The notes under the pieces are model-generated. The model was not told where the DNA came from. It saw only the letters and a list, made by a program, of their open reading frames with translations, and ran no database searches. Positions 3,851-29,524 of a DNA stretch of 56,932 nucleotides are shown one piece after another (position 1 is the stretch's first letter; each line of letters starts with the position of its first letter). Source of the stretch: Cylindrodendrum hubeiense (Eukaryota > Ascomycota > Sordariomycetes > Hypocreales > Nectriaceae); the NCBI GenBank assembly GCA_014621425.1, contig JAANBB010000259.1, forward strand, positions 1 to 56,932, written 5' to 3'. Position numbers and translations under genes: made by a program.

Positions 3851-6800
3851 TTAAGCCTTGCCCAACAACGGAGCAGATAAGAACAAAACGTTGTTGTTGT
3901 CGATGAGGCTGGTTGGCTTCTCCCCAACAAGGCCCGTGGTCTTGAATATGTCCTGCCAAATATTGACGGCCGACTGGGGAGCAGGCGCAGCCTTCCAGGC
4001 CACTTCAAGGGACTCCCAGGGATTCGGGCCGGGCGGCAGCGGCGCAAAGGCGGCGCTCTCGTCCTCATTGTCGAGGAACTGCGGCTCGTCGCCTTCCTTG
4101 TAGATATTCTTCTTCATGGCCTCGTCGACGCGGAATGCGGGCATCTTGTCCAGCGAGACTTGCGGGTCCGGCGCCTCGATGATAACGCCCATCAACAGGC
4201 GGGCCATGCCGCCTCCACCGTTGAGCAGATTGGAAAAGTCGCTTCCAGGGCGGGCAGCGTTGGGGTCTTCAGATTCGTCGTCTGTTGGGTCTGTTAGCTG
4301 GGAGTGCCTGCGAAAGAGGAGAAAAGAAGGGGGGATTCAGTCAACCTACATCTTCCCCAGAGGGCTTGGGGAACATCCTTCCACGCAGGCTTCGCCTTCC
4401 ACCCGACGCTTTTGGTGTTGCCCGGGCCGTTGATTTTCACGGAGAGGGTCGAATCTATAGCCTCTTTGAGACGCATCGGCTTAGCGTAGATGTCGTCGAT
4501 GGTGACCGTCTCGGGCGCGGGGGCGGTCTCCCCGTTGACGGTGACTTGCCTTATGGCGTACTGACACTCAACGGCGAACTGAAACACGCCACTGCGGACA
4601 AGCCATGGGTCGGTTGCCTTGATGTCCTGCTTGTTCTCCGTTACAAGGCCCTGCGTGCACGAGAAGAGGTGGGCGTCCTTCTTGCCGGCCTTATCATCAA
4701 CGGCCCGGCCCTCGGCCTGTGTGACCAAGTCCCAGAAGGCCTGGGACGAGAGGCGCGGGGGTCTGATGGCACCGGCGGGATCGCCAAAGGCGATGTCGAA
4801 GCCAAAGACCCAAAAGTCGACGTGGACGACGCCGCGCAGGGGCGGGCCCATGAGGGACAAGCTGGCGGCGACTTCGACGGCGATGTGTACGGTGACGAAC
4901 CACACGTCCATAGAGAAACGCACGCCGACTGACACCCTGACGTCGGCGACGAAGTGGAAGGGCGAGTAGGTCATGAGGAAGTCAGCAGACGCGTCGAACC
5001 AGGCCGACAGGGCGCCGAGCGACAGGGCGGCATGGATGCGCAGGCCGCCCATGCACACCTTGGGCGTGATGGCGAAGTAGGCTTCGCCCGAGACGCTGAG
5101 TGAGCTGTCGATGGTCCAGCTGATGCGCAGCCGGTCCGGTCGCGGGTAGTACTCCGGGACCACAAAGGCGCTGTGGTAGCCGCCGATGGTCATGACCCAG
5201 TCGGCGCGCCCTCCGCCGAACCAGTAGTACAGGGCGAAGCCGCCGGTGAGGTGACAGCTCTTGTGGATGATCCACGAGTTGGGCGAGAGTTGTGCCTCGA
5301 CCCGCAGGATGCCCGCGTCCAGATCGACGGTGGCGATGATGCCGAGCTCGATGTGGGCGAACTTGACCTGCGACTTGATGGACGGCACGTCACACCTGGC
5401 GAGCCCCAGCACGGCGAGCTGGACACGCGGACTCCACTGGACGGCGACGACGGCCGTCATCTCGAGCATCTGGAACGCCGTCACAGTGAGACCGGCCGCG
5501 ATGAACATGGCCCCGTTCGCGGGGTTGAAGAAGGGCCCCCGCTGGCCGCCTCCCGGAATCAAGGTCCGCACCAGGTCCTTGGGCGCCAGGGGCTCGTCGG
5601 GGGGAGCCAGCAATGGAAACGTCACCATGTTGTCCATGGTCGGCAGCGTCAAGTCGACGTTGTACCCGAAAGCACCGGTGAGGCCCGAGATCTCAGCGAA
5701 GCCCGCAATGTTCATGATGGGCCCGCGCAGCACGGCGTAGGCGAAGAGGCACTTGAAGCGGTGCGGGTCGTCCGCCGCCCCGATGATGCCGTAGAAACCC
5801 GCGGCCTGGAACAGCCACGGCGTGAAGCCCACCGTCAACCCTCCGGCGTACATGTCGCTGTCCGCCGTGCGATCGTGCAGGAAGGCCCCCGCGATGAGCA
5901 AGGGCGGCCGCTGGAACTGGACGCCCACGCCGCTGATAGACACCTCAACGTCGTGCCAGCTCAGGCTTTTGAGGTTCTTGGTCGACCCGTCAGCCGCCTG
6001 GAAGTGCAGCCCGATGGTGAAGCCCATCAGGTCGAGCGCCACGGGGCCGAACGCGATGGTCGCGTCCATCAGGATCGCCAGCGTGCCGCCCTCGTAGCGG
6101 AAGCCGATCTGGCTGATGTTGAGCGCGCCGACCGTTTTCTTGTAAGTGCTCTTGCTCGACTGGTCTGGCTTGTCGCCCCCTTGGCCGGGCTTGTCGTCCT
6201 CTTTGGGCGGCCGAGGTGGCTTCACAGCGCCGTCTGGCGCCTTTGTCGGCCCATCTTCCTCTGCGTCCCGAGTCTCTCTCTGATCCGACCGCGCGTTTCC
6301 AATGGGATAGTCCATAACCACTTTGTTCTTGGCTATGATGACAAAATGGAAGCCTGCCGTCATGCCCGGGGCTGGCTGCTTCCCTTTCCCAGCAGCTGGC
6401 ACCGGTTCCGACACGTCCGTCGGCGGCGGGCTCGGCATGTCCAGGGTTTCGTCCAAGGCCGCGAGTTGATCCTCGGTGACGTCCTGGTTTACCCAAAAGA
6501 ACCCGAGCTCGTCAAAAGGCTGTTCCAGGTGGTCGAGAATAGGAATGCTCTCGGGCATGGGGATCTCGGTTAGTACGGCCTTGAACAGTCTCAAGACCTG
6601 GACGGGCTTCTTCCCCGGGGTTGGTTCCTCTCCGTCGCCGTCGTTCTCCTTCTCGGCCACATCTTTAATCTGCACAAACTCCACCTCGATTCCCATGATG
6701 CTCGCAGTCAACGTCAGCTTGGGGCCGGCCGTCTTGTCATCCTCAACAACCAGCTCAAGCTTGGGGTTGGAGTCGGAGCCGCCGAGAATCACAGTGTCGG

Positions 6801-9800
6801 CCAGAAAGTCTGGCAGGCTGGAGCAGAGGCTCGTGTCTGAAGAGTCCAAGAGGCTGTCCATGATCTGGCCCAGGGTAACTGGCTTGACTATGTCGTCCTT
6901 GGGCCCGAGGCTTGCATGGAACCTCCACGTGCCGTCGGGGTGGCATTCGTAGCCAAGCACCAGCGAAACAACATCCCCCAGCATCAACTTCGCTTCGCAC
7001 TGGAGCGTGGTGCCGTCACCGTCGCCTTTTGACTGATAGAAGATGCCCAGGTCGACTATTTGGATCCCCTTGAGAAGCTGGAAGAGAGTGTCCTGGGCGC
7101 CCTTCGGAAAGAATCCGTACAGCATGCCCAAATTCAAATCTCGAACTTCGGCAGAGATGGTCCACAGCCCGCCAGATTGGTACGAGACACTCCCGTTGAG
7201 AGCGCTCGCCGCACAGCCCTCAGGAGCGTCATACCAGGAAGGCAACGTCAAGCTGAGCCAGAAGTAGAGATCGACTTGAACCAGCTTCCGCTTCCAGTTC
7301 CACCGCGCCTCGAGGCTGAGCTCCTCGAAGCTGATGGCGGGGACTTTGCTTCCACCGACCACGTGATTACAGTTGCTGATAGTGCCGCAGACGAAGATAG
7401 ACTCCTTGTCGACGCGGAAGCCGGCTGCGGTGATGACGTTGGGGATGCCATTTGGCAGTTTCGGAATCCGGGTGTCGTCTGTGGCACCCGTCATGGACGC
7501 GAAAAGGGTCGTCAGCTCCAAGGTCTTCAGCGCATTCGGAGTGACCGGCTCTAGGCTTCGATATTCCTCGTAGTCGCTGTAGAGGGCCAGCGGGATATCC
7601 GAGTCGGACGGCAGCCACAGATCCCCGGATATGGACCACTCGCTCTCTCCCTGAGGATTGTTTACGTACTGCGCCTCGAAGCGGATTGGCAGGTTCTGGC
7701 CTCCCTTTTCCCCCTGGCCCAGCCTGGCATTCACCTCGAGAACGGCCGAGGCTCGGGCGATGGACTTGTCGGGGTTGAGCGCGACGGTGAACCTGCGGAA
7801 CCAGATGTTCTGGCTAATCTTCTGTTCGCTCAACGTGCTGAACGTTGTGTCAGCCTGGGGGAACAACTTCGACAGCCAGCCGCCTGCGACGTCGGTGAAG
7901 CTGTTGTCGGCCCGGGTTGTCTTGACGGTGAGCTCGAGGGCGCCGGTGCTGGCGAGCTCGACGCTGATGGTTGGCGAGACCTCAGCCCGGGGCTTCGTGG
8001 GATCGTCGAGCTTGGGGCCCAGCAGCTTTACCGTGGCCGACAGCGTCAGCGACTGCGCGGTGACCAGCTTCGTGCCTTCTCGCTCCCTCGCCTTGACGGT
8101 GCATGTCTTGCGGAGGATGAGCTGGACATCGGACACGTCCAGCACGGGCTCGTCATCGGCTGCTCCCAAGGAGAAGAATAGGCCCAGGAAGCTGCAGAGG
8201 GCGTCCTTGCTTTCCTTCTCCGGGACGAAGACGAGGCGTAGAACGGTGAGATAGCTCGCGGCGGGGGTCACCCAGATGGCGTTGCGCTTCCCGGCTGACT
8301 CTTTAAGATTCAGTGTCCATCTCAGCCCGAGCAAATTGTCGTTGACAATGGCCATAGTTCTCGGCAAGGGGTTCAACTTGGCACTGGGGTCGGCTGGGAA
8401 TAGGGACAAGATCTCCGCGATGGACCAGCTGCTGGCGCTCTCCCAGCTTTCGAGGGGATCGAGACCAAAGACCATGGTGCCCCGTCCATTCCACGGGGAA
8501 AGCCCGTCGCTCGATATCATGGCATCCGTCCCCAGGGCCTTGGGCGCCGCTTCGGTGCTGAATACGAGCTTGTGGGGCGCCATGATGCGGAACGCAGGCC
8601 CCTGGCTGTTGGCGGCCATCTGGGAGCCGCCCAGGCCTCCCTTGATCCATTTACCCAGGTAGTCCTCGTCGTGTAAAAACGCCCATCCGTCCTCGAGACT
8701 AGACGCCAGCCTCATGGTGCTCGGCCGCATCGACAACAGGAAGTCGTCGAGCCAGTCTTCCACCTCCAGGACGGTACAGTGGACTGAGTCAGTCCTGGAG
8801 CTCACCGACGCGGCGTAGGAACTGCTCAAGATGCTGTATTTATACCGTCCAGGCAAAAGCGGGCCGCTCGCCCGGGCCGATGCTGAAGCGCCGGAGAGAG
8901 GCACCTGGAGTTTCTGCGGCGCCATGGAGAATAGTTCTGTAAAAGGCGAGTTCAAGTTCTGACCATGCGTCTTCAGCTTCTTGGCCGGCTGGGGTTCGCT
9001 GTCATCGACAAGCTTTTTCGTCGACTTATCCAGGACAGCCCTCCCCGAACCCGTCATGACTGACATTACCCACACTTGGACGCCCTTAGTGGCATGATTG
9101 ATCTTCTTAAAGGCGTGGATTGGGGGCGGAATTATGAAGTCGTGGTCGCGGTCGTCTACCCCCTTCATGAAGTAGACCGTGTCGATCTGCGCGTTCCTGT
9201 TGGCCGGCAGGCTCTTTGTCTTGCTTTCAATTTCCTCCTCGGTGATGCTGTTGGTCATCCTCAGCCGGACGTAGACAACCTCATTTGTGGTTTTCCCCGC
9301 GTTTGTGTCCCAACTCCAGTGGTTGTAGAAGAGATCGTTGGCAAGCGCGGCGAAGCCGATGGCGATCTGCTCGAATATCTCATCGTCGGCTGTGGCTCCG
9401 TCGCTGACACAGCCCTCGCGGATAAACTCGTCCAAGTCGTCGTCTGGGAAGTCCGCGAAGATGTCATTGAACACTGCCTTGTGGTGGTTTGCGTGCTTCT
9501 GGCGCGTCTTCGAGAGCTGATTGTGCAGGTGCGGCGGAAGAAAGGGGTCTACGTTGATCTTGTTCGACTTTAGCCCGTCATGTCCGTGGATGCCTGACAG
9601 CCAGCACGGGTAGCATGTGAGAATACAAGGGCCGTTGGTGTTCGGTTTAATCCTGTTTTGCCTCCGATACAAAGCATACAGCATCAGCAAGACCTCCCAA
9701 GCTTTGGGAGTCCACAAGTGTCAGCATCGGGGGGACGCGCGAGAGGAGCAGGCAACTCACCAGGATGTCCGTAGTGGTCTGCAACGGAGAAAATGACGTA

Positions 9801-10772
9801 CTTGGGCTTGGTTACGTTGAATAGCACTGGCGGGTTCGAGTTTCGGGCCCCGTGGTGGCTCGACTTGAGGAAAGTGATGTTGTTGTCCTTATCATCGTTC
9901 TGGAAGTTATCCTTGAGCCACCTTGCGAGGAAGGCCTCACCCCGAAAGTCAAGGTCGCCGGCAAAGTAGTGAGAGACATGCTTGTTACTCCAGAGAATGA
10001 TGGCGGCGATGGACTCCTGGTTCGTCTTGGTGGGCATCTGGTTGAACAGGGTGTCGGTGACTGCTCCCTTCCACCTCGGCCGATTCCCGTACCCGATGAC
10101 TTTGAGGTTGCTGGCCACACAGTACATTCCCACCTCAGGATGTGGGTTGTTGCCCCCCATCAGTTCCTCGAACGATTCGATGTCATCAAACTTTACCTTT
10201 CCCGACGGCTTGGTGTTGGTGAAGAAGTCGTATCCGATGAAACTGGAATCGATCATCGCCTTTGCTAGGGGTTTCCCGTTGAACGAGAAGACAAAGGTGC
10301 CATTGGCTGTTCCCCTGTCGATGGTTATGCCTTCCAATTCCTTCTCTGTCTTCGTCCCGTCTTTTCTCTTCGTCCCTGTCCAGGTGGTCGGCGCGTACAC
10401 GGTCGTGCCAGCATTGTCTCCGTAGTAGAAGCGGGAGTATTTGCCGTTTTTAAATTGAGCGACTTCCTCCCTCACGAGCAACTCGTTGATGCCCTTCCAA
10501 TGATCCGCGTCCCAGTGTGTCACGACGACGGAGCGAAACTGCAGCACCCGCTTCTGCCTACGGAGGTTGATGTAGCGATCCTCGATTTCTTTAATCGTCT
10601 TGGATATGTTCTGCGCCGCTGCGTCGCGTGCCAATCCGCCATCTACCAACACGGCTTGCCTGGCCTCGAGGTCATTGGTTACGGGGTTCCAGGTAGCCAG
10701 CACATGGATGGCGCTGTCGCCGAGTCCGACATTGATGTGGAAGGATTCGACAATCGTCTTTGTTTGGGCCAT
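3851..10772 (-). CDS. Giant ComEC-type metallo-beta-lactamase / DUF6603-like fusion protein
   Basis: Three exons (10772-9761, 9701-4350, 4290-3851) give 2267 residues. Both introns are 59 nt. Residues 1-340 form a metallo-beta-lactamase fold of the ComEC/Rec2 type: FHINVGLGDS at 12-20, THWDADH at 85-91 (HxDxDH metal ligands), AGDLD at 271-275, SSHHG at 304-308 and YGHP at 334-337. The first splice joins YGHP to AWEVL, restoring the usual end of this domain. Residues 340-1500 are a long beta-rich region without recognised domains, then a Pro/Lys/Asp-rich linker. From about 1530 to 2070 the beta-rich region starting NISQIGFRYEGG and running past WFGGGRADWVMTIGGYH looks like the DUF6603 core of large bacterial and fungal proteins. 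No signal peptide is visible. The 4290/4350 junction is the best in-frame choice but less certain than the first. Its activity is probably metal-dependent hydrolysis of an unknown substrate. It is divergent from the 1195-aa gene. Confidence 0.85.
9702..9760 (-). other. Intron 1 of the metallo-beta-lactamase/DUF6603 gene
   Basis: On the minus strand the donor is GTGAGT after CATCCTG, a branch-like GCTGAC lies near the 3' end, and the acceptor is CAAAG. Removing the 59 bases joins the hydrolase head to the body in frame and recreates a YGHP-AWEVL junction typical of ComEC-type hydrolases. The two parts therefore belong to one protein rather than two genes. Confidence 0.85.
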
Positions 10773-11266
10773 TGATGCGCATTGCTTGTCGACGCTCTCA
10801 GTGTTGCTATAATAACTAGAGGAGATGGACGATTGGGAAGGCTGTTGGGATTGTGCTACTACGCGAGTACACGGCGGTACAGTATTACACGGTCTTTCGC
10901 GCCCATCAGACTCAGGCCTCCTGCAACGGCCACATGGGCCGCAGACACGCAGATGCGGGAGTCCGTTTAGGGGATAGTCTAGGGGCTAGTGGTTAGCTGA
11001 GCCAGGTCCCCAGTGAATAAAACGATAGACTGTGATGAACCCGCATCGACCCAGACCGGTCTAGACATGTGGAGACGGACGTTGGACTATTTGAAGTATG
11101 GCGGACGCTTTGGGAGTCGTTGTCCACGCCTGGGCGTGCGTCTTGGAGATGTCCGCCGGATTGACAACGAAGACAAACCTGTCAGACATGGGCCGTCTTG
11201 TTGACTTCGTCTGGATAGAGGCAATTGGTAATACTCAGAAAGACAAAGCAAGCGGCTCCCTGAAAA
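10773..11266. promoter_or_regulatory. Bidirectional promoter spacer between two giant genes
   Basis: These 494 bases separate the divergent start codons of the 2267-aa and 1195-aa genes. I see no long frame with coding character and no clear TATA box. The two genes probably share regulation from here. The right-hand ATG has the context gaaaaATGG. Confidence 0.55.
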
Positions 11267-14200
11267 ATGGCCTCGCTACAGACTGAAGACACGCTCCCGG
11301 GTGGGCTTCGCTTCCTCACGCTTCAGCACGCCTATGAAGTCGCCAAAGCGAGGGTAGCGGCCTCTAAGGCCGCTGCATCATTCAAGATGGCCAGCCTGGC
11401 CAGCGAAGCCGTATTCGCCACCACTGCTGCCGAGGAAGAGACGATGCCAGCCGCAGAGTCAAAGAACGATGAAAAAGATGAAGACCCAAAGTCCGGCCTC
11501 GAGCCGCTCGAAGACGGCCACCAGAAGCTCTACTCGTACTTCCCACCGCGGCTCGACGGCGGGCTACAGACCATCACGGTGACGCAGACCATCGTGGCCA
11601 GCGGCGCCGACAAGGAGCAGGGCCAGCTGGATCCCAAGGTGACGACGAAGCCGTTCCTCGTGCGAGCGCCGCAGTTCGCCCTGCCCGATGGCTGCGTGCT
11701 CTCCGTCAACCCGGCACCCGGCGGCCTCGCCGCCGCCGAGACGCTGCCGCACGTCGTCTTCAAGGACCCCCATCTGCCGTGGGAGCGCCGCGTTGACTCC
11801 GGGGAGGACGCCGGCGCCGCCCGAAGAGAGCGTATGCCCTGGCTCGCCCTCCTCGTCTTCAGCCAGGCGGAGCTACAGCTCGAGCCGGAGCTCCTCCAGG
11901 GCGACAGATCCCCGTTTGCGGTCACGAGCTTGGCCAAGGACGCCGAGGGGAAGCCCGTGGCGATCAAACAGAGCTCCGACTTTGCCCTGACGCTCTCGCC
12001 GGCCGATGTCGACGTCTTGAACAGGCAGGGCTCCATCATCTCGCCCATTCCCCAGCCCGATGACCGGAGCAGCAAGACTACGGCTATTTTCCTCAAGCCA
12101 AAGCTGTTCCAGCAGCTCGTCACCACCTACGAGCAAAAGGAGAAGACGGCCGAAGACGGCAAGAAGCTGGTGCTGTCGTCTCCCAAAGAAGGACAAGCGG
12201 CCGCCGACATCTCGCGGTTCAAGTACTTTGCCCACGTCCGCCACGTCAAAACCGCGGGTATGACGGCGTCGGCGCAGTACAAAGAAGGCCTATTCAGCGT
12301 CGTCATGTCGCACCGCGCAGGGCCGCTCTCGACGGGTCAACAGACGCCCGCCGTGGCGCATCTCGTGTCACTCGAACGGTGGAAGGACATGGTCTTTCCG
12401 CTCCCTTCGACGGCGCAGCGCGTGGCCGTCTCGTCGCTGTATAGCTGGACGTACACGGCGCTCCCGACCGGCGGCATCAGCCTCGAGGCCGAGTTTAAGA
12501 ATCTCGACAAGGGCATTGGCCTCCTCAGGGCACCGCCCGCGCTAATCGCCAAGATGGAGGCGGTTGGTGACCCGAAGCTCGCCGCGAAGCTGGGCAAGCG
12601 GCTCAGGGAGGGATATACGATGCAGCGTCACCGAACGAGGACCGGCGAGGTGACGAGCAGTTTCTTCAGGGCTGCCCTGGTGCCCGTCGTCCCGGCCGAG
12701 CCGACTTGGACGGCCATGTCGCGATGCGGAAGCGACCTGCAGATCCTCGACCGAGACACGGGCATGATAGACATTACGTACTCGGCGGCCTGGCAGCTGG
12801 GTAAGTCGCTCGCGATCGCCGACGCTGTATTCACCACGGCCCTCACGCGACTGTGGAACGGCCTCTACGGCATCTGTCTGGATGGCGCGAAGCAGGATGT
12901 TCTCAGCAAGCGGAATGCCTACAAGAGCAGGAAGGAAGTTCTGCAGTCTTTCAAGATATCCATTATAACTCTGAACGAAATGCAAAGGCCCTCGACCCGG
13001 GAGCGCCAGAGTGAAGGGAAATGGGCTCGGGAAACGCCGTCTGCCCGGCGCCCGTTGACGGAAGAAGCTGTGTCACTGGCCGTCGACGATGCTACCATCC
13101 GCGAAAAGAGCGAGGAACAAGCAGAAAAGTACATCCGAAAGCTCGCCGGGGCCAAAGATGAGAACGGCAGCGAGTATACAGATGGCGAACGCTTCTACAA
13201 CGAACTCAACGCGTGCGTCTCTGCCGAGTGGAAGATCATCCTTAAATGGATCATGGACCGCTTACACCTCTTTGGGGTGCCACCGGCCTATCTCATCGCA
13301 GACCCAAGCTTCCTGCCACAGGAGAGCATCCGGTTCTTCCACATCGACGCCAACTGGCTCGATGCTCTCATCGATGGCGCCCTCAGCCTCGGCAGCCATA
13401 TGAACGACAAGGACGACTACATCCGCCGGCGGATCAAGGGGGCCATCAACACATACCTCGACACGACGGACCCAGCCACAGGGTACAGGCCGCAGACGCC
13501 GTCCTACGGGATGCTCCTGCGGTCGGACCTAGTCTCCCGCTTCCCGGACCTCAAAGTCGAGGCACCGATCCCGCCAGACGCGCCCGAGGCCGGCCGGGCG
13601 CCGATCCTCCGGCAGGAGATAATCGGCGACGGGCTGCTCCTGTGCCTGTTCGACCGGGTGCCCGGCCGCGACGCCGAGATGCCGGTACTGGCGTTCACAC
13701 AGCCGCCGCACCAGCAGACGTTTGCGCTGGGCAACAGACTCACGCCCGACGCGCTCGCCATCCGGTACAAGCGGGCTTACACGGTCGAGAGGAGCCGGTA
13801 CGACTTCGCGGGCGCCATGCCCGAGCGGACGACGGAGCGCAACCGCGAGGCGTCCGGCTCCGCGCCGGAATCTGGGCCGCCGCTCTTCTTCTGGGGAGAC
13901 GCAGACAAAGACGAAAGGGCCCGATTCCTCTTGACAGACGCGTGGGCGCGAGATGTCGTGGCCCTCCTCCGAGAGGAGATGCCCCTCGACTTCACCGACA
14001 CCGCCATGACGTCTGCCGTGGCAGCCTTCCAGCTAGGCATGCCCATCTATCGCTTCTGTATCGGCAACACGTCGAGTCTCCAGGCCCTCCAGCCAGACCC
14101 TGCACGCCCGCCAAGGCCACGGGGATTTCAGCTGCTGGACCCTATGCAGGAAGACTCGCAGGAGGCGGCCGAAGCTACGACATTAGCCCTGCGAAGCGTG

Positions 14201-14854
14201 GCCCGTTCTGCATCCCCCCTCATCGTGCTGAAGAGCCTCGAGACCGGGCCCCCTCCTCACTTCCGCCGCACGCCCACTCTTACACAGACGCCCTCGGCAG
14301 CGGCGATGGTGACGCAAGTCGAGTCGATGGCCAACGACGGGGCAGCGACAGGACCCATGTTCGCCTACGCCGTACACGCCATCGGGGCGCCGTACAGCCC
14401 GCTGCGGACAGGCAGGGGCCCGCTAGACCTCGTCTTCACGATCCGGCGGTCCGACGACGACTTCCTAGACAAGGACTACTGGCTCAAGAGCATCAAGTTC
14501 GAAGTGCCGCGCGGCAGCAAGGGCGACAAGCGCAGACCGCTCCTGGAGAACTACCGCGGGCCCGGGCCGACGATGCTGAGCAACCTGCGCTTCAACGTGC
14601 TCGCCAAGACGGCGCCGGGCCGGCTGATCCTCACAGTGCAGCCGCGCAGTCGCAAGGGCCACGCCAAGGGCGTTCGCATCAACCGCATCCGCGAGTGCGG
14701 CTTCGTGCTGCCGCTGGTCGAGGTCCACGACATCAAGCGCGTGGTCGACATAGGGTGTATAGAGGAATGGCTCAAACCGCCCCAGACGAAGCCCTCCCGT
14801 GCCATCGAAGTCGAACTGCAGCCGGCGGGGCCCCAGTTTCCTCACAAGTCGTAG
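11267..14854 (+). CDS. Intronless 1195-aa protein, bacterial-type conserved giant protein
   Basis: This is one uninterrupted frame of 1195 codons from an ATG in good context. I know no named domain, but several blocks look like conserved cores of large uncharacterised bacterial proteins: PHVVFKDPHLPWERR at 161-175, PWLALLVFS at 191-199, SYGMLLRSDLVSRFPDL near 745-761, and GDGLLLCLFDRVPGRD near 785-800. The last resembles a bacterial motif I recall as LLCLFDGVP followed by a short acidic stretch. Residues 40-80 are low in complexity and acidic. No signal peptide or membrane helix is visible, so it is probably cytoplasmic. The absence of introns over 3.6 kb is unusual for this genome, where comparable genes have two to seven exons. 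It lies head-to-head with the metallo-beta-lactamase/DUF6603 gene and upstream of the lectin-like and 1418-aa genes on the same strand. Function unknown. Confidence 0.85.
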   Translation: MASLQTEDTLPGGLRFLTLQHAYEVAKARVAASKAAASFKMASLASEAVFATTAAEEETMPAAESKNDEKDEDPKSGLEPLEDGHQKLYSYFPPRLDGGLQTITVTQTIVASGADKEQGQLDPKVTTKPFLVRAPQFALPDGCVLSVNPAPGGLAAAETLPHVVFKDPHLPWERRVDSGEDAGAARRERMPWLALLVFSQAELQLEPELLQGDRSPFAVTSLAKDAEGKPVAIKQSSDFALTLSPADVDVLNRQGSIISPIPQPDDRSSKTTAIFLKPKLFQQLVTTYEQKEKTAEDGKKLVLSSPKEGQAAADISRFKYFAHVRHVKTAGMTASAQYKEGLFSVVMSHRAGPLSTGQQTPAVAHLVSLERWKDMVFPLPSTAQRVAVSSLYSWTYTALPTGGISLEAEFKNLDKGIGLLRAPPALIAKMEAVGDPKLAAKLGKRLREGYTMQRHRTRTGEVTSSFFRAALVPVVPAEPTWTAMSRCGSDLQILDRDTGMIDITYSAAWQLGKSLAIADAVFTTALTRLWNGLYGICLDGAKQDVLSKRNAYKSRKEVLQSFKISIITLNEMQRPSTRERQSEGKWARETPSARRPLTEEAVSLAVDDATIREKSEEQAEKYIRKLAGAKDENGSEYTDGERFYNELNACVSAEWKIILKWIMDRLHLFGVPPAYLIADPSFLPQESIRFFHIDANWLDALIDGALSLGSHMNDKDDYIRRRIKGAINTYLDTTDPATGYRPQTPSYGMLLRSDLVSRFPDLKVEAPIPPDAPEAGRAPILRQEIIGDGLLLCLFDRVPGRDAEMPVLAFTQPPHQQTFALGNRLTPDALAIRYKRAYTVERSRYDFAGAMPERTTERNREASGSAPESGPPLFFWGDADKDERARFLLTDAWARDVVALLREEMPLDFTDTAMTSAVAAFQLGMPIYRFCIGNTSSLQALQPDPARPPRPRGFQLLDPMQEDSQEAAEATTLALRSVARSASPLIVLKSLETGPPPHFRRTPTLTQTPSAAAMVTQVESMANDGAATGPMFAYAVHAIGAPYSPLRTGRGPLDLVFTIRRSDDDFLDKDYWLKSIKFEVPRGSKGDKRRPLLENYRGPGPTMLSNLRFNVLAKTAPGRLILTVQPRSRKGHAKGVRINRIRECGFVLPLVEVHDIKRVVDIGCIEEWLKPPQTKPSRAIEVELQPAGPQFPHKS

Positions 14855-15770
14855 GCTGGCCCGTAACTCGTCCATACTCTGCAGTGTATCCGTACGAAGT
14901 AGGTCGTTGCGTATCTCGATGGGGAATGGTGTCGTCACGGACAACACACACCTTAGCGCCGGGATCCCTACCTGTTGCCGCATTCGTCTTTCGTCGCAAA
15001 TAGTTCGTGTACTAGTTTAGTTCCCGAGGACAAAACAGGTTAAACCGAAGACTACCATGCCCAGACTAACTTAGCTCCCGGCCATAGTCAATAGTGGCTG
15101 GCAGGTAGGGAGTGCTCGGCTGTAGATAGTCTAGTTACGTCTGTAAATAGTCTAGCTAGGTCCGCTCGTGGGCCATTTCTCCGAAATGTCTCACCCCGTG
15201 AGTTATCGCGTCACTACTTTATGCCTCATTGGGAGCTAATTATACGTCACCTCGTCGTGAGCCATCACACTTCAGGACAATTGACCTCCAATGCATCCCC
15301 ACCAAGAACTCTACCAAACGCACTATCGAATCCCGCGCACAAGATCCACGCAAGAGCTGACCGCAGAGCTGACCGCAGAGCTTCATTCGGATCGCAGACG
15401 CCCAAAACGTGACGGTCTAGAACGGCCGCGCATGGTGCAGACTGTTAATACGAGGGCCGTGCCTGTAGAAATGTTGCAGTGATTGTGGAATCTGTGCAAA
15501 CGACGAGTCCCCGTTTGGAAACAGAGCCATGGCGGCAACTATTTGCTGCATGTTACAATCGCTCACTCCCCACTTGTAAGCAGGCGGGTCAATCTCTATC
15601 GTGGCCAAGAGGTTTCGTTACGTACTGTGATCGTGGTAATGGCAGCACATAGCTGTCGAAACCGCATATAAGACCCGCAGAGAACAGCCAGACAAGCCGT
15701 CATCACCCACCTTTCCATAAATTTCTTCTACTCTCCAACCCAACAGCCTTCACCTGCACACTCTAACGCA
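14855..15770. promoter_or_regulatory. Intergenic region with 12-bp direct repeat and promoter of the lectin-like gene
   Basis: No gene is supportable. The segment gagctgaccgca is repeated in tandem near 15354-15379. A TATA-like tataag at 15667-15672, about 100 bases before the ATG at 15771, followed by a pyrimidine-rich leader, marks the likely core promoter of the downstream gene. Confidence 0.5.
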
Positions 15771-16858
15771 ATGACCCCCAACGCTCTCATCTGGAATCCT
15801 CTGCGTCAGACTAACGACCGCTTGCTAGTCTACTACAACAGCACCAAGAGCAACCTTGGCCTACGCCAGTGGTTGGCCGACGATGGAGGCTGGGCTACCG
15901 TGTGGGCAGAGAGGGAGGAGAGCGCCAAGGGCAACATCAAGGTCGGCAGCGGACTCACGGCGTTGAGATGGCGCGACTGGGTGAGTGCCTCGCAACTTGA
16001 ATGCCGACTCTTCCGGCTCGAGTGAGCGCGCTAACAGACGGGCAAACAGATCCGAGTCTACGGCATTGTGTCCGTCAAGAGGACTGACGGCGACGACATC
16101 AACTACGTCTCTCTCCTCAGCCCCGTCATCCAGTCTCTGGGCCTCAAGACCGACTACAACCGCCTGACGGGCACCGGCAACAGCAAGGACAAAGCCTGGC
16201 TGTACTTCCTCACGTAAGTTCCCACTGCACTCTAAGCTGTTACACAGCACACATGGCTCAACAACCCAGCGGTGCCGAAAGCCCCGTCATCAACGAGCGT
16301 GATACCGACAACTCGACTACCAAAGCCATCAACAAGACCCAGACGCTCTTGAACGATAGCGACCCGCCCGCCCTGACCGACCTGGCCTCAGCCTACACGC
16401 ACAAGAACCACAAGCGCTATGTATTCTTCCAGACAAATGATAGTTCCATCCACATCGTAGATGTGGCGGGCAACACAGGTGAGCAAAACGCAGTGCCCAG
16501 GTGGAGGAAGAGACCTCAGACTGACACTCAACCCGCAGATGTTATAGTGTCGACCGACGCGAGACCCGGCACGCCACTAGCGGCCACGTCGTTCATCCAC
16601 GGCGAAAAGGAGTACTTGGTGCTGTACTACGTCCGCAAAGCCGACGACCTGCTAGCCCGCTCCCACATCGTCAGCGGCATCCCCGGTGCTAAATGGGCAA
16701 ACAAGACGCTGGATGGGACGGGCAACCCTGCACAGGAGACACTGAGCGTCGCGCCCAATCCCACTCAGTCTCAAAACACAGTGGTGTTTCTTGACAGTGA
16801 AAACGAGACCCAGATCTATGCGGACGATTGGGATGTGATCATCAACCCCTCGGCGTAA
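15771..16858 (+). CDS. Fucose-specific-lectin-like beta-propeller protein
   Basis: Four exons (15771-15980, 16050-16213, 16270-16478, 16539-16858) encode 300 residues. The introns are 69, 56 and 60 nt, all GT-AG and in phase. The chain repeats a strand pattern of the type RLLVYY...GLRQW...W, then IRVYGI, KRYVFFQTNDSSIHIVD and YLVLYYV. These blade-like repeats, and a length near 310 residues, match the six-bladed fungal fucose lectins (AAL/FleA type). Those lectins bind fucosylated glycans between blades through conserved Arg, Glu and Trp residues. Here I see only some of the Arg/Trp positions, so sugar binding is uncertain. There is no signal peptide, as is usual for that family. It sits between two giant intronless genes on the same strand, suggesting a recognition role in the same system, though that is inference. 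It could instead be an unrelated propeller. Confidence 0.65.
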
Positions 16859-17161
16859 GAACCGACTTGTGGCAGGAGGGAGTGGTGATGTGAATTCAGA
16901 GAGACGCTGGAGCCTGTAACTAGTTTTGAACAGCCCACCCGAACCTGCGTATAGTTATAATTGTGTGCCATTCACCTCCTAGAAATGAGTAAGCGGGAGC
17001 GAATCAGAACACAAACAGTATAGTGAGACTAGTTTGAGTGACATATTGGCGTCTCGGTCATAGCAAATGGGTATATAAACCCTCTCCCCCACGACCAGTC
17101 CCGTCCTCGCACCTCTCTCCATCTTTTCTTCTGGGCGCTATTCCCGGCTGCATCCGCCACC
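16859..17161 (+). promoter_or_regulatory. Promoter of the 1418-aa gene with TATA box
   Basis: A canonical tatataaa at 17072-17079 lies 83 bases before the start codon. It is followed by a long C/T-rich leader and a strong initiation context, gccaccATGa. The strong TATA and leader imply a gene that can be highly induced. Confidence 0.65.
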
Positions 17162-20100
17162 ATGAGTTCCCTGCTGCTCCCCATCAAGGTGGAATGCTTC
17201 GTCTTCAACGCGGCCGTGTGCAGCGGCGCCGACGACGAGGCCAAGGTCGCGCCACTGGCCCAGCCCGACTACGCGCTGCTGCAGTACGAGGGTGGCTTCC
17301 TGTCCCACGACGTGCTGCGCCACGTCGACCTGCACGCCGCGTCGCCATCATCAACCAATATGCGCTTTACCGACCTCGGCACCAACCGCCCCCGCCTCAA
17401 CCGCCAGGGCGTCTACATCCACTGGACCCTCCCGCGCCCGTACCGCACCGCCGTCGCGAAGACGGAGGACACGGCCCCACCCGGTCTGCCGCCCGGCACC
17501 GGCGTCCCCGACGATGACGGAGGATACGGGGAGTCCGAGATGGGCGGCAGCCACGACCCCACTATGCCGAGCTATCACGATGTGCCTCCGCGCTGGCTTG
17601 TCGTTCGCCGCATCGACAGGGACTCCATCCTACCCGAGAGTGCCAAAGCCTTGGTGACCGGAAGCACCGAAGACTACCTCGTGCCCGAGTTCCGCGCCTG
17701 GATAGTCGAGAGCGACGTCCGCAGGTCCATCGACGACTTGGACGAGACGGTTGATGTGCAGACAGACGTGTCGCCCTACATCGCGCCGCAGTCTACCACC
17801 GACGGCAGCGTCGACGTCGACATGAAGACGCAGGCCGAGGTCTTTATCGGTCAGCGGTTTCCGGCCGAGACGTGGTCCGAGACTGAGAGGGATCGAGTGC
17901 GTCTCAACTTGTTCAACAGCTCAAACCAGCTCTTTGCCGACTACCAGCCGCACAACGGAAACGTATTTAGCATGCTCGACCGGTTCGAGTACCGGGATGC
18001 CGAGGGCAAAGAACAGTGTCTGACGGCAGTCAACGCCTCCTACTATGTCGTCGGGTGGCAACCAGACGTCGCACGAGACCTGTTTGTCCCCCCAGCAAAC
18101 CAGAAGCCCGACGATCCATCGGCCCGCCCGTCGCAGCTCCGCTCGCTCAACATGGTGCTCGAGGCTGACGGCGAAACCTCCACAGACACTTGGACCAAGG
18201 ACAAGACGGCCGCAAGGACCGTCTGCCACGGCGCCATGTACGACGTCGAGTGGCACGCCGAGCGAAAACCCTCCACCGTGCCCGCAGACGAGGCGTGCGC
18301 GCACCTGATGGGTTCCTCGCCCATCGCGGTGGGCACGACGCCCATGGACGCCATCATGGCCTACGTCTCGGGCCACAGTGCGTCGTCGGTCGGCGACGTC
18401 CACAGGCTCGAACTAGACCTGCTCAAGATGCAGACCTTATTGCTAGACCGCGATGAGGGCGTCGAGCCGCAGCGCCGCGCCGCCAGCGTCCTGAGCAACC
18501 TCAACTTCCAGCGCCAGGAGGGCGGAAAGCGATACTTCCTCTCGGACCCCCGTGACGATGCCCAGCAGGTCGGCCCCGGGGAAACGTACGAGCCTACCAA
18601 GGCCGAGCTTGACAACTTGTCTCTCCTGAACGAGAAGCAGCGGCAGATCGACGCTCTGTCGCGGTCGCTAAAGAATCGCCAGTGGGATCTATTTGCTCAC
18701 TGGTGGGAGCTTCTCACCGACGTCAACGCCGACGCCACCAGCAGCCGATACAAGAGGTTGAGGCTAGAGATGACGACGCACATCGGGGAGCTCGACCGCA
18801 AGATCAAGGCCATCGAGGAAGAGCTCGCCAACGTGGAGCTGGATCGTGGCAAGCTGCAGACCGGCACTTCGCAACCATTTCATCAAGCTGGCGATCCGAC
18901 AGTCCTCGTCGCCGGAGTCCAGTCTGGCTGGGCTGTCGACTTCCTCGATGCCCTCAAGGTCAGACTGCGCCATCAGATCATCGGGGCCATCAAGGACGAC
19001 AAGCTTGTCACGCCAGCTCTGCCCAAGTATCTTAGCGATGTCGTAGAGAGGCTCGGCGACTGGAACACCGACGTTGGGCTGCTTTTGGCCGAGTTTCTAG
19101 CTCTCAATTCCGACACAAACCAGGAGCAGGAGCCCGACAAACCCGCGATACGCCCTCTCTATCATGACCCTGACCTCAGAGCTGTCATTCCCAGGGATGA
19201 TCAACAAAAGGACGACCAGCCAAAGGACGACCAGCCAAAAGATGATGAACCAAAGGACCAGCCAAAAGAAACCGAAAAGACCCGCTGGCGAGATAGGTGG
19301 CACGGCACGCAACCGTGGGCTCCCCTCTACCTCGAATGGGAGGCGGACTTTGTGCACATTCCATTCGACTTTTGGAAGCTGGATAATGGCAAGCTGACAA
19401 CCACCGAAGCGGAGAGTGCCAAAGTCCGATACCGCATCGATACGGAGTCCCTCACCGAAGGCAACGTCAAAGACTCGAGGAAGCTGTCGGGCAGAGTGCT
19501 GATGCTGCCGCAGCCGACCACGTCCCTCAGGCACAAAGTCGAGCAGCTCTTCGCCGACACGCCGGCCAACACGCTCGATGACTTGCCGTCCGATCGCAAC
19601 TTTGTGCTGTCACAAATCGACAAACTGAACCTGCTCTCGGCCCCGCTGGCCGGCTTCACCAACCACCTCATCACCAGGCAGGGCGGGACGCACGTGAAGC
19701 CGACGTACCGCGAGCCAAACCGCGGCGGTGGCGGCGGCCACTTCCCCCGGGCCATCCCTGGAGCCACGGAGGCGGCCAAGTTAGGAAACTTCAGCGACGC
19801 CGACCTGGTGCTCATGGGTCTGGAGACGGACGTGACGCCGTACGGCACGGGCGTCTCGTTCACGGCCACTGGGGAGAACCCCTTCAAGCCCGTCACCCAC
19901 GGCCAGTTCTGCATATCCAAGCTCAACATTGTCGACAAGTTCGGCCAGGCCATCCATGCCGTGTCACCCGGTACTAACACTAGCAAGAAGATCCCCAAGC
20001 TCTACACCAGCGAGTACCTGCGTGCGCAGCAGCTACTGCGACTGCCCGCCTCAGATCCGGCCCCCGAGGCTGGTCGCGGCGACGCTTCGCTCGTGAGGAG

Positions 20101-21418
20101 CGAGTTCGCCCAGATCCCTCCCCAGATCAACCAGCTCGCACGCCTTAACGCCGAGTTCGTCACGCTGAAGCCAGGCCCTCCAGATTCTGCCCCCTACTGG
20201 CAGCCGGCCCAGCAGGCCAGTCAGCCCGTATGGGGCTGGGTCATGGTCAACTACGCCAACCAGGGGCTGCAGTTCTTCGCCAGCGACGGTAAGTTCCACC
20301 AGGAGGTCAGGTTCGGCGGCCCGACGGGCAGCATGGCGTCTCCCAACTGGATGCCCGATCGGACGGACCTTCCGAAAACCGACGCCGGGCTGCAGCAGCT
20401 GGAGAAGCTGCTCAAGACGCTCGAGGACAAGGACTATCTGCAGGCCTTCATCCGTATGATCACCGAGGCCATGAAGCACTCGCTCCCTGCCCCGGGTGCC
20501 TTCTCCGAGTTCATGAGCGCCGTCGTCGGTCAGCCCCTCGCCCTGGTCAACATGGGCTGGTCCATCGAGCTCGCCGTCGACGCGTACACGAGCCACGCCT
20601 CACTCGGAAGTACTGACATGCGCAAGAGGCTCCTGCCGGACCGGACCCGTGAGGAAAAGGATACGCCCAAGAAACAGCTGTACGAGTTCCAGGTGAAGCT
20701 GGGCGACGAGAAGAAGGCCTACGACGGGCTCGTCGGGTACTGGGAAGCGAAGCAGAAGCCGAAAGCCGGCGATGCCCTGGAACTGGGAAACCTGTTCACC
20801 TACTACACGACCCCCATCAAGGAGCCGGGCCCCAAGAAGGATCCCAGAGAGGAGATCAACCATACAAACTATCCCAGGTTCAACCCCTACTACTTCGACC
20901 CCACCAAAGCCCGGCCAGCGGCGCTCGAGATCCTGCACTACCGGAAACTAAAAGTCTTTGGCGCCATCATCGACCCCTTCACGGCTATCCACGGGTACAG
21001 CAGCATCCTGCCGGTGCGGGAGCTCAAGCTGTCCCCGGGGATGTGGCAAAAGGCGTTCCGCAACATGACGGCCTTCTTCCACATGGGGCCGCTGATCGTC
21101 ACGAAGGACCTGGTGATGCCGACCAAGCCCGTGGTTCCGCCTGGCGAAGCCAACGCCCCAGCCGGCGATGTCGAGGATCCGGCTACGGAGAAGCCGGGCC
21201 CTTCCAAAGTCAGCCTCCCGACCAACAGCCTCGCGCAGTGGGAGTGGCTCCAGCCGCACGTCGTCGGCAACCAGGACTTACCCGAGTCGGTGCAGGTCGA
21301 GCGCTTCGAGGTTGCCCCTGTGGATCAGAAGCCGCGGCTCGAGCCTAATCCGTACACTGCCATCGAGGGATACCTTCATCTCAAGGGCCCCAAGACGGCA
21401 AAAGATGCCTCTAACTGA
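17162..21418 (+). CDS. Intronless 1418-aa protein, bacterial-type conserved giant protein
   Basis: This is one frame of 1418 codons. I do not know a named domain, but blocks along the whole length recall one family of large uncharacterised bacterial proteins. They are GVYIHWTLP near 83-91, PPRWLVVRR near 142-150, FRAWIVESD near 178, YYVVGWQPD near 293, VCHGAMYDVEW near 353, VGTTPMDAIMAYV near 389, APLYLEWEADF near 720, LSAPLAGFTNHLI near 822, YEFQVKLG near 1174, and IIDPFTAIHGYSSILPV near 1268. Residues 490-565 form a heptad-rich coiled coil. Residues 679-700 are a hydrophilic run of QPKDD repeats, probably a flexible hinge. No signal peptide or membrane helix is seen. It is probably a structural or scaffold protein, but this is inference from size and composition. 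It shares strand and neighbourhood with the 1195-aa gene. Function unknown. Confidence 0.85.
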   Translation: MSSLLLPIKVECFVFNAAVCSGADDEAKVAPLAQPDYALLQYEGGFLSHDVLRHVDLHAASPSSTNMRFTDLGTNRPRLNRQGVYIHWTLPRPYRTAVAKTEDTAPPGLPPGTGVPDDDGGYGESEMGGSHDPTMPSYHDVPPRWLVVRRIDRDSILPESAKALVTGSTEDYLVPEFRAWIVESDVRRSIDDLDETVDVQTDVSPYIAPQSTTDGSVDVDMKTQAEVFIGQRFPAETWSETERDRVRLNLFNSSNQLFADYQPHNGNVFSMLDRFEYRDAEGKEQCLTAVNASYYVVGWQPDVARDLFVPPANQKPDDPSARPSQLRSLNMVLEADGETSTDTWTKDKTAARTVCHGAMYDVEWHAERKPSTVPADEACAHLMGSSPIAVGTTPMDAIMAYVSGHSASSVGDVHRLELDLLKMQTLLLDRDEGVEPQRRAASVLSNLNFQRQEGGKRYFLSDPRDDAQQVGPGETYEPTKAELDNLSLLNEKQRQIDALSRSLKNRQWDLFAHWWELLTDVNADATSSRYKRLRLEMTTHIGELDRKIKAIEEELANVELDRGKLQTGTSQPFHQAGDPTVLVAGVQSGWAVDFLDALKVRLRHQIIGAIKDDKLVTPALPKYLSDVVERLGDWNTDVGLLLAEFLALNSDTNQEQEPDKPAIRPLYHDPDLRAVIPRDDQQKDDQPKDDQPKDDEPKDQPKETEKTRWRDRWHGTQPWAPLYLEWEADFVHIPFDFWKLDNGKLTTTEAESAKVRYRIDTESLTEGNVKDSRKLSGRVLMLPQPTTSLRHKVEQLFADTPANTLDDLPSDRNFVLSQIDKLNLLSAPLAGFTNHLITRQGGTHVKPTYREPNRGGGGGHFPRAIPGATEAAKLGNFSDADLVLMGLETDVTPYGTGVSFTATGENPFKPVTHGQFCISKLNIVDKFGQAIHAVSPGTNTSKKIPKLYTSEYLRAQQLLRLPASDPAPEAGRGDASLVRSEFAQIPPQINQLARLNAEFVTLKPGPPDSAPYWQPAQQASQPVWGWVMVNYANQGLQFFASDGKFHQEVRFGGPTGSMASPNWMPDRTDLPKTDAGLQQLEKLLKTLEDKDYLQAFIRMITEAMKHSLPAPGAFSEFMSAVVGQPLALVNMGWSIELAVDAYTSHASLGSTDMRKRLLPDRTREEKDTPKKQLYEFQVKLGDEKKAYDGLVGYWEAKQKPKAGDALELGNLFTYYTTPIKEPGPKKDPREEINHTNYPRFNPYYFDPTKARPAALEILHYRKLKVFGAIIDPFTAIHGYSSILPVRELKLSPGMWQKAFRNMTAFFHMGPLIVTKDLVMPTKPVVPPGEANAPAGDVEDPATEKPGPSKVSLPTNSLAQWEWLQPHVVGNQDLPESVQVERFEVAPVDQKPRLEPNPYTAIEGYLHLKGPKTAKDASN

Positions 21419-22148: not shown

Positions 22149-22738
22149 CACCTTAAAACTGTCGACCTACAATAATCATCCTAAACATGGTTCTCAGTGT
22201 CAAAAACTGGACATTTGACTGAACTTGGATGGTTGAATATACCTGGAGGCTTAGTAAAGTTGATTTGGAAATGATCATCAAAAATTGGACATTTGACCAA
22301 AACTGGATGTCAAAAACTGGATGTTTGACCAAAACTGGAGCATTGGCTTAAAACGGTTGACTAAAACTGAACGTTTAAATCGAACGTTTAAAACTGGAGG
22401 TTGACTGAAACTGAATGTCAAAAACAAGACGTTTGACTAAAATTGGAGCTTTCACTAAAACTGAACGTCAAAAACTGGATGTTTGACTAAAATTGGAGCA
22501 TTGGCTAAAAGCGGTTGACTAAAGCTGAACGTTTAAAACTGAATATTGACTAAAACTGAGCGTCCACAACTAGACGTTTGAATAAAATTGGAGCTTTGAC
22601 TAAAACTGAACGTCAAACACTGGATGTTTGACTCAATGGAGCATTGGCTGAAAACGTTTGACTGATGCTGACGTTTAAAACTGAATATTGACTAAAACTG
22701 AACGTCAACAACTAGACGTTTGACTAAACTGGATGCAG
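22149..22738 (+). repeat. Higher-order tandem repeat array built from a roughly 30-bp GTTTGACTAAAACTG motif
   Basis: The array opens with caccttaaaactgtcgacct, shared with the decayed copy at 2904. It continues as dozens of variants of two motifs, aactgaacgtcaaaaactgg and gtttgactaaaattggagc. The marker tggagcattgg recurs at 22336, 22494 and 22637, so a higher-order unit of about 143-158 bp is overlaid on the short motif. No coding frame runs through it. It may be the internal repeat of an unidentified mobile element or a satellite. Confidence 0.8.
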
Positions 22739-23497
22739 GGTCAAGCGAACAAATCTTGTCAATGCCTAATTTGCAGATCGGATCATATAGGCGAAAACTG
22801 TGTTGTCTAGTTAACCCAAAGTATCTAGCAACTCTTTCATCGATTACATTATATACTACTGGGGTATTTCTTGCTTACGAGATCCATTGACTTTCCTATT
22901 TACCCCACCCGATAGAGACACTGGAAAGCCGTGCAGCACCTCTATTCGTCGGTAGTGGGATGCTTCGGGCTTTTGGGGCCGTGTGTCTAGAAGGAACATG
23001 GCCACTATCGCTAAAGGCAGATTTGACAGACTTTCGTTCCGTAGAAGAACTGTAAATAGAAATATGGGTCTTGGAGGACTGCTGTGAGACAGATGGGAAA
23101 GACGTAAGTGGGGTTCCAGGGTGGGATCCTTTGCCCGTCGTGTCCTTGTCTTTCGTATCCCTCCGCACCGCCACTCCCTCACCGTACCTAAGCTCTCCTT
23201 TGGCTGCGTCATAATTGCCTGCGGTACATCACTACTTTGTTCCCATCCCTGGAGATACGAATTCATACATCCTGCAACTTGGAAATGAAATCATGGAGGA
23301 TAAGTTCTTGATTTTAGCCAGCATTTACATATCTAAGGCTCCACATATCCCACTAGATCTCAATACCCCTTGACAACCAAACGAGCAAAAGTGTGTCATT
23401 GGCCTTTCGATTACTGGCTCTAAGATTACATTTTCTCACTATAGACATGGTTGATATTTCCTAGCGGTAACTGCATTGGAAGCCAACCTCAGCCTGT
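22739..23497. other. Intergenic, no supportable gene
   Basis: A 136-codon frame on the minus strand (22856-23266) starts with ATG but has no recognisable motif and a composition unlike the neighbouring genes. The rest contains the presumed 3' region of the SnoaL-like gene ending at 23498. Confidence 0.5.
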
Positions 23498-27467: not shown

Positions 27468-29524
27468 TTTAAACCCGGTATGCCCTCCGAGTGCCTACTG
27501 AATGGAACTTGAAATAAACTAGACCTCTAGTTCATGCTAACCATCCTCAGCCTTGTCAAACCTAGCAATGATACACAACTTGAGAAGAAATGAGGGTTAG
27601 TCGACAAAGAGCCAATAAAAATGCGAAACACACATGCTTAAATTGTGGTATGGGTGGTAACGAGTGTGGTGGACAGGGATATGAAGGAGCAGAACCGATG
27701 TAGGGTAGGCTGGCTCCACATGGCAATTGGTGCATTTTCTTTCGCCACACGGCTATGGGTTAAGTTAGATCGGAGAGGATAAAACCCAAGTTGTTCGCTC
27801 GCATTATGTTGCATGGATAACTCCAAATTGACCTTGAGATTTCCGTCGGAGGTTTTCTACCCTCTCATCTGGGGACACTCCTTGTACAGCTTCAAAAAGT
27901 TACCTTTTTATTCTTATCATTTGCAAAGATATTTTCAAGCTTTTAGATAGTTTTGCCCGTTATTGAACATATTTACTTTTGGGTTCAACACCTGGATACT
28001 CGTACCATAATAGTGGGTGTTACTCGGACACCGCGATCAACTGCTTGTTGTGGCACGTGATGTTCCTTTGGAACAGTGCGAGCCGCGTATTTTGAGCTTC
28101 TGCTGTGACATGTAGCGATACACGCTGCATCATCTTCGAACACTCGATTTGTCGACGTAGAAACCATGGATCGTTTCCGGTCGATATAACAATCTCACCA
28201 TCTGGAGGATAGAACCAGTGTATTCCCATTGCCCTAGAATTTATCCTGCAGCCTTAAATTCTTCTTCTTGATGAAGCCACTAGTTTCCTTGACTCACAGA
28301 GTACGAAATCCGGGCAGGTCAGGTAGCTAATGGCAAGGCCAGGACTTTTGTTCAGCACCGGTTGCCGGTTGATTGAAGTGCAAAATGCCGACGTATTCTT
28401 GTATTCGAAAAGGTAGGCACGCATTGGACAGAGAAGCATGCGAAGTTGCTTGAGAAGAGGGGAATGTCTTATCAGATGGCACACCAAATTCGGGCTGATG
28501 CATGTGGTGAGACTTTCGGCTGACACGAATCTACTCCAGAAATCAGGCTCTGAACCGGTCAAATAGTTGAATGTGTGACACAATTTTCATGCCACATGCT
28601 TTTCTTCGCGCCCTCGTATCAGGCTGTTATGGATAAATTGGTATGTGAACCTGCCATTCGTGGATTTAGAAGCTCTCGGTTGCTTGGTTGTGTAGAGGTG
28701 GTCGCGCTGTGTGAAATGCAATAAGCCTTTGTTCCAACATGCAGAGTTTGCTGTGGAATCATGCGGATGATATATATATGTTCCACTATCTCCTCTGATA
28801 GCCCCAGAATGACGTGCTAATGATAAGTGGGAGTTCTACCTCAATACGGAGTACAAGTTCTGGTAATAAAAGTCGCACCTTCGATTGGCTATAATGCGGA
28901 CCACAAGATATGTAGTGAGACCAGGGTGGCAGACCCGGGATCAAGCGGCGTCCCGTTCACGCCTAAAACATTAAGCACCCAGTGACATCGTAGCCCGCAT
29001 CAAGACACGATGTCCGCCGCCCTTAGCTAGCTGGATAGGTACGAACACGCACGACTACCCACGAGCAGTACCTGCACGTATGTGGATCTTGACACGAACG
29101 ATCCCCCCATCTTAACTTGCAATCATTCATAAGCTGGAAACTTCGTACGCCTTTCAATGAAAACCGGCTCGCCAGCTGGAGGATAATCTTTCGAGCGCCG
29201 CGTTTTTTTCTCTCCAATTCTGCCTCGACTCGCAACCTGATCCTTTATTTACCACGCTTGATGCCCAATGCAACCACCCCTCAGAAGTACGCGATTTCTG
29301 CCTAACGAGGCTGGACGAAAACAGTTCGCAAGAAGCCGGAGACAACAAAGCCGCGCAGCTGTGTGTCAGACAGTGGCATATGTAGAGTCACTTCTGACCT
29401 CCTCAATTGCACATTTGGCAGTCTTATCTTTCAACCTGCGGCCTTCATAGTCCACGCCATATCTCACGATGTTCTTCATCACCCCTTCGCTCGATACGCA
29501 ACCCATACGTTACATACTCCCGCG
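27468..29524. other. About 2 kb intergenic, no gene that I can support
   Basis: Two minus-strand frames, 28254-28583 and 28020-28229, look mildly coding and can be joined by a GTGAGT donor near 28297, but neither starts with ATG and no family is evident. The remainder up to 29524 contains the 5' region of the ankyrin gene that follows. Confidence 0.45.

Follow-up and report, generated by a model that had tools for sequence, protein, structure and literature searches.

The locus described here raises the question of what three giant proteins, encoded side by side in the fungus Cylindrodendrum hubeiense (Ascomycota; Nectriaceae), might do together, and whether they belong together at all. It lies in a window of 56,932 nucleotides, by which we mean the whole stretch of DNA that was analysed (GenBank assembly GCA_014621425.1, contig JAANBB010000259.1, positions 1 to 56,932 of the forward strand); this window is one contig (C178) of a 47.5-Mb genome assembled in 798 contigs (G000). 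A sequence-only reading had described a 2267-aa fusion of a ComEC-type metallo-beta-lactamase (MBL) with a DUF6603 protein, placed head to head with an intronless 1195-aa protein (here GP1), followed by a lectin-like gene and an intronless 1418-aa protein (here GP2). The gene models of the cluster were reproduced, with these protein lengths and this layout, and the gene cluster is real. DUF6603, GP1 and GP2 form a tightly linked three-gene core, which bacteria arrange like an operon and fungi as a cluster. The fungal cluster comprises the following features.

3851..10772, minus strand: MBL-DUF6603 fusion gene, 2267 aa (exons 10772-9761, 9701-4350 and 4290-3851; predicted splicing)
9761..10772, minus strand: ComEC-type MBL domain (exon 1), from Lactamase_B and PADLOC matches and motifs
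10500..10517, minus strand: metal-binding motif II, HWDADH (HxDxDH form), from a motif scan and comparison with ComEC in excerpts of PMC8579336
4570..6141, minus strand: DUF6603 domain (PF20248), a Pfam match in the last third of the fusion protein
10773..11266, no strand: divergent region between the fusion gene and GP1, 494 bp between the two start codons
11267..14854, plus strand: GP1, intronless, 1195 aa, single open frame
15771..16858, plus strand: middle gene, 300 aa (predicted exons 15771-15980, 16050-16213, 16270-16478 and 16539-16858)
17162..21418, plus strand: GP2, intronless, 1418 aa, single open frame

The fusion gene joins two minus-strand open reading frames (ORFs), 10772-9684 (MBL) and 9684-4294 (DUF6603), through a 59-nt intron. 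With splice sites predicted from GT..AG and the reading frame, a second 59-nt intron gives a predicted protein of exactly 2267 aa that ends at 3851, and an alternative acceptor gives 2264 aa. The MBL, which is the first part of this protein, matches Lactamase_B (PF00753) at 24.0 bits, above the Pfam cut-off of 22.7, and contains all of the previously noted metal motifs (HWDADH, AGDLD, SSHHG and GHP). Its nearest PADLOC models are LmuA (E 7.7e-12), Avs1a (2.3e-8) and the RT-associated MBL, RTasMBL (1.1e-7), while the NCBIfam models for ComEC (16.5 bits, cut-off 190.05) and Avs1a (38.3 bits, cut-off 420) score below their cut-offs. Excerpts of PMC8579336 describe the MBL domain of ComEC as a Mn-dependent nuclease with an Asp in motif II, a feature that the window MBL shares with this C-terminal domain; it differs from ComEC in scoring below the NCBIfam cut-off and in showing no membrane channel by hydropathy. 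The DUF6603 domain is a full-length match at 479.1 bits (Pfam cut-off 27). Pfam assigns no function to this family, and our literature search found no paper mentioning DUF6603 or PF20248.

For neither GP1 nor GP2 did any Pfam or NCBIfam model score above the cut-off. No PADLOC model matched DUF6603, GP1 or GP2 at E 0.01, so that the LmuA-type similarity is confined to the MBL, and a PHROGs search matched GP1 only at E 0.038. Hydropathy plots of the proteins checked gave no sign of a signal peptide or a helical membrane segment. The middle gene had been labelled fucose-lectin-like, and this label is not supported: its Fungal_lectin (PF07938) score of 13.0 bits (E 0.071) lies below the cut-off of 25.3, and what it shares with the fungal lectins is a weak local resemblance.

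The case for a single module comes from bacteria. When fungal GP2 was compared by tblastn with 72,556 plasmid records, there were 8 matches, from Streptomyces, Embleya and Paenibacillus. We read six of these regions, the remaining two being further S. clavuligerus records; GP1 adjoins GP2 in all six and DUF6603 is present in five. Fungal profiles matched the plasmid ORFs at E 2.6e-52 to 1.3e-74 for GP1 and 5e-42 to 4.6e-66 for GP2 (values from a small ORF set), and comparison of fungal with bacterial profiles gave E 9.5e-95 over 1110 columns for GP2 and 1.1e-72 over 630 columns for GP1, the C-terminal part of fungal GP1 having no alignment to the bacterial profile. A phage origin was considered and rejected, since no phage record matches.

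An alignment of the six plasmid GP2 sequences retrieved 156 relatives from an 84,980-species collection. The best 80 of these, together with the six plasmid loci, make up 86 bacterial loci; the hosts of the 80 are mostly Actinomycetota, with two Paenibacillus genomes, one SAR324 and one Chlorobiaceae genome. The order DUF6603-GP1-GP2 on one strand was found in 79 of the 80 genome loci and five of the six plasmid loci (84/86). The exceptions are L023, which lies on a 4.5-kb contig, and L017, where GP2 is in two pieces and no DUF6603 was found. Because the search profiles were built from the plasmid loci (that for DUF6603 also from the window), the 80 genome loci are an independent test. Across the 84 ordered loci, the distance from a stop codon to the profile match of the next gene has medians of 27 nt and 24 nt (ranges -12 to 701 and -4 to 900). 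This bears out the proposal that the giant proteins are one conserved module also present in bacteria: the three families stand together there, the opposite of the scattered homologues that would have spoken against it. Chance neighbours or an assembly artefact in one fungus would be favoured only by the contrasting GC content of the window copy; the bacterial order and two further core loci in the same genome refute this explanation, to which we attach a negligible probability.

Since the loci had all been fetched through GP2, a reverse search was made from DUF6603. A Paenibacillus DUF6603 query found seven plasmid records, all seven with GP2 and three of them the same S. clavuligerus plasmid. 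In genomes, DUF6603 was present in 4 of 198 sampled Actinomycetota (seed included) and in none of 14 controls. Strict linkage is weakened by the three non-seed genomes, G056, G113 and G198, which gave no GP2 match at E 0.001, and where the genome search found GP1 weakly in two and no match in G056. At their loci (L103, L104 and L105), DUF6603 precedes a weak relative of GP1 (profile E 5.9e-4, marginal, in G056, then 9.5e-12 and 1.3e-10; searched with filters off in a small ORF set), after which comes a giant ORF with no match to GP2, its length being 1563, 1620 and at least 1936 aa, respectively. These loci may represent a second, diverged subtype. Of 201 genomes from the seed's family, only the seed had GP2; in the genus of the Paenibacillus seed, 2 of 40 genomes did, counting the seed. 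The module is rare and accessory.

In the fungal genome, all three core genes occur together at two more loci, on contigs C8 and C57. On C8 a weak middle-gene relative (E 1e-4) again separates GP1 from GP2, and no MBL match turned up; on C57 no middle-gene match turned up, MBL and DUF6603 are separate open frames, adjacent and collinear, and the GP1 match spans residues 87-825 only. The window GP2 is 26-40% identical to the C8 and C57 copies, depending on the aligned piece. Genome-wide, DUF6603 was found at three places without stops and as a piece with stops at C112:194198-194766, and GP2 at three intact places and as pieces with stops at C1:386587-387684, C690:72233-72532 and C101:238304-238606; GP1 was found at the three core loci and as a partial relative at C135:206274-207698. 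Given these extra copies and broken pieces, the clusters seem to come and go.

Other fungi carry the same genes. At E 0.001 there were 403 homologues of GP2 and 213 of GP1, each from ~8000 scored candidates, and the named species among the best 120 listed for each are mostly filamentous ascomycetes. The locus tags of GP1 and GP2 are two apart in Neonectria punicea, Fusarium piperis, Trichoderma cornu-damae, Rhizina undulata and Coccidioides posadasii, a spacing that would accommodate a single intervening gene. In an unrooted, quick-search tree of 60 chosen GP2 rows, one branch with full SH-aLRT support separates all 36 fungal from all 24 bacterial rows; the C57 copy sits on a long branch. Within the fungi the tree conflicts with taxonomy, and near-copies occur across classes. 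Hyaloscypha and Colletotrichum simmondsii belong to different fungal classes, and their GP2 proteins are 86% identical over 1421 columns; this near-identity suggests transfer or contamination. The split between kingdoms fits the movement between bacteria and fungi that had been proposed, as one exchange, in either direction, that looks old, with old common descent followed by losses as a possible alternative.

We also compared what lies around the core. In 14 of the 86 bacterial loci, DUF6603 is preceded, on its own strand, by a ComEC-type MBL gene, which is the next gene call in 13 of them and is separated from it by one 343-aa ORF in L019. The window MBL scores 41 bits against a profile of 12 of these genes; L074 and L102, also among the 14, match that profile only at about 1e-9. 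As the MBL adjoins DUF6603 in some bacteria, the fungal fusion joins genes that are neighbours there. The bacterial MBL of L060 has LmuA (6.9e-13) and the RT-associated MBL (8.6e-11) as its nearest PADLOC models. A metal hydrolase as the effector, as proposed earlier, gains from this homology and from the upstream genes, its activity being predicted from sequence. A PLD-like gene lies two genes downstream of GP2 in L018. An EEP nuclease in the upstream slot of L056 and L089 was a motif match only, had no Pfam support and, with DNase gamma at E 0.25 as the best PDB match for L056 and none for L089, was kept as no more than a lead.

These matches raise the possibility of cytosolic immunity against mobile elements or viruses, in which GP1 and GP2 would detect the invader and the MBL, tethered to DUF6603 in the fungus, would destroy DNA, as in Lamassu, Avs1 and Hachiman. 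Excerpts of PMC12799240 describe related MBLs as gated DNases that are switched on by partner proteases in Hachiman and AVAST, report the MBL-protease pair also from Lamassu and DRT, and speak of an interchangeable nuclease pool on which defence systems draw; the exchangeable ComEC-type MBL, typically upstream of the core gene, is common to those systems and ours. The resemblance of the MBL to the LmuA, Avs1a and RTasMBL models and the accessory, patchy occurrence of the module, also on plasmids, argue in the same direction, as do genes annotated as CATRA conflict-system and CHAT some 5 kb upstream of one bacterial operon (L022:974-6030). The differences lie in the partners: here the MBL is either part of the DUF6603 protein or encoded upstream of it, and no trypsin-like protease or NTPase, SMC or RT core was seen in the module. 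PADLOC at E 0.01 found no SMC-like LmuB partner in the cluster, and Pfam and PADLOC found no STAND NTPase, as in AVAST type 1, among the window ORFs scanned. A trypsin-like protease was absent from the window proteins by Pfam, and the 14 bacterial MBL loci, searched by motif scan only, gave one antisense ORF. When 110 of 147 listed neighbour genes were scanned with PADLOC, 25 families each matched one or two genes (no control loci). Sugar- and lipid-binding modules, moreover, are unusual for such a job. We consider immunity of this kind possible but not probable.

Candidate sugar- and lipid-binding modules lie near the bacterial core. Downstream of GP2, a fourth gene family is present in 60 of the 86 loci (72 members; for example L022:19794-22284); among 65 members scanned with Pfam, four matched F5/8C, four Bactofilin (weakly) and one PLAT, and most had no match. 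Fifty-one neighbours, picked by hand and partly for recurring, included nine hemopexin and seven Lactamase_B proteins, up to six of one propeller family and three ricin lectins. In the Chlorobiaceae locus, a DUF4135 gene, of the lanthionine-synthetase type, lies upstream of the core (L091:458-2452). DUF6603 itself was modelled as a large up-and-down sheet of long amphipathic strands, with porins and ApoB100 as the nearest structures; it differs from porins in a high root-mean-square deviation, in its occurrence mainly in Gram-positive bacteria and fungi and in having no signal peptide by hydropathy. In L021 and L094, the DUF6603 protein carries C-terminal repeats that resemble a beta-propeller by eye.

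The discoidin, PLAT, hemopexin and ricin-lectin neighbours and the predicted porin- or ApoB-like sheet would suit a stored anti-predator or anti-competitor complex, one that stays cytosolic until the cell is damaged, whereupon the lectin-like module would bind surfaces of the target, DUF6603 would meet the membrane and the hydrolase would act inside the target. The lack of signal peptides by hydropathy agrees with such storage, and many of the hosts are filamentous fungi or bacteria of the soil. Some lectins of the fungal cytoplasm are known to act against nematodes (excerpts of PMC3355094). Pfam scans of the core proteins found no known toxin-complex family, however, the lectin label fell below its cut-off and many loci yielded no hydrolase match, and we regard this explanation as unlikely. 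A lipid or hydrophobic-metabolite particle, with DUF6603 as an ApoB-like belt, GP1 and GP2 as its coat and the MBL as a metabolic esterase or phosphodiesterase, appears improbable to us as well; the patchy distribution, the decayed pieces and the nuclease-type MBL would be unusual for housekeeping.

The explanation we favour, tentatively and with somewhat less than an even chance of being right, is a horizontally spreading conflict module built on a cytosolic giant-protein complex with exchangeable sensor and nuclease parts. Because gene order is near-invariant and no signal peptide or membrane helix was seen, the products of DUF6603, GP1 and GP2 would form one large cytosolic complex. DUF6603 would contribute a broad amphipathic beta-sheet of porin or ApoB type, able to meet lipid, and GP1 and GP2 would serve as scaffolds. 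The cue, a glycan or a lipid, may be read by an exchangeable plug-in module, in fungi the product of the middle gene and in bacteria discoidin, PLAT, hemopexin or propeller proteins encoded near the core, and an exchangeable phosphodiesterase, the ComEC-type MBL that is fused to DUF6603 in this fungus, would be the effector, cutting nucleic acid after triggering. Inside the cell the target might be a virus or mobile element; alternatively, it might be an attacking or feeding organism. This conflict module is an umbrella of which immunity and the anti-predator complex are the two arms, so that their probabilities do not add to its own. Several results weigh against it: the module has no known defence partner, the one or two matches per PADLOC family among the 110 neighbours (no control loci) do not make a clear defence neighbourhood, and no hydrolase turned up at many loci, with an upstream MBL in 14 of 86. 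A fuller version, namely a previously undescribed bacterial-fungal conflict machine with DUF6603, GP1 and GP2 as the core of a giant, beta-rich complex in the cytosol, one that senses glycans or lipids through plug-ins, deploys its ApoB- or porin-like sheet at a membrane and releases a ComEC-type nuclease, and that entered the filamentous ascomycetes once before spreading horizontally, seems doubtful to us.

The surroundings of the cluster in the window add two features.

4001..21000, no strand: GC-rich block coinciding with the cluster, from per-kb GC
22203..22778, no strand: AT-rich degenerate direct repeats bordering the cluster, from repeat comparison, with one 62-71% similar copy at 2957-2998

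The GC-rich block noted earlier is evident (0.53-0.66 per kb across 4-21 kb, falling to 0.38 on the left at 3-4 kb and to 0.415 on the right at 22-23 kb), and a second higher-GC stretch lies at 33-38 kb (0.54-0.57). The C8 and C57 loci have a GC content near 0.5, and high GC is therefore a property of the window copy and not of the system. The repeats on both sides hold up less well, being AT-rich 42-nt matches of 62-71% identity, one on the left and five on the right, the latter beside a degenerate array of ~110 nt. Further left, positions 1-452 contain tandem direct repeats of ~100 nt, perhaps the end of an ankyrin-repeat gene (an inferred label), and an ORF with a SET domain lies at 1884-2771. 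On the right, 29363-32097 holds one ORF with a PigL_N domain and one with ankyrin repeats, a frequent make-up of fungal NLR-like genes.

In conclusion, Paenibacillus, Streptomyces, SAR324, Chlorobiaceae and filamentous fungi have in common an order of three giant proteins for which we found no function on record, and two of the three, GP1 and GP2, have no match among the curated Pfam and NCBIfam families. If it is a conflict system, it would be one more immune or antagonistic module common to bacteria and eukaryotes.

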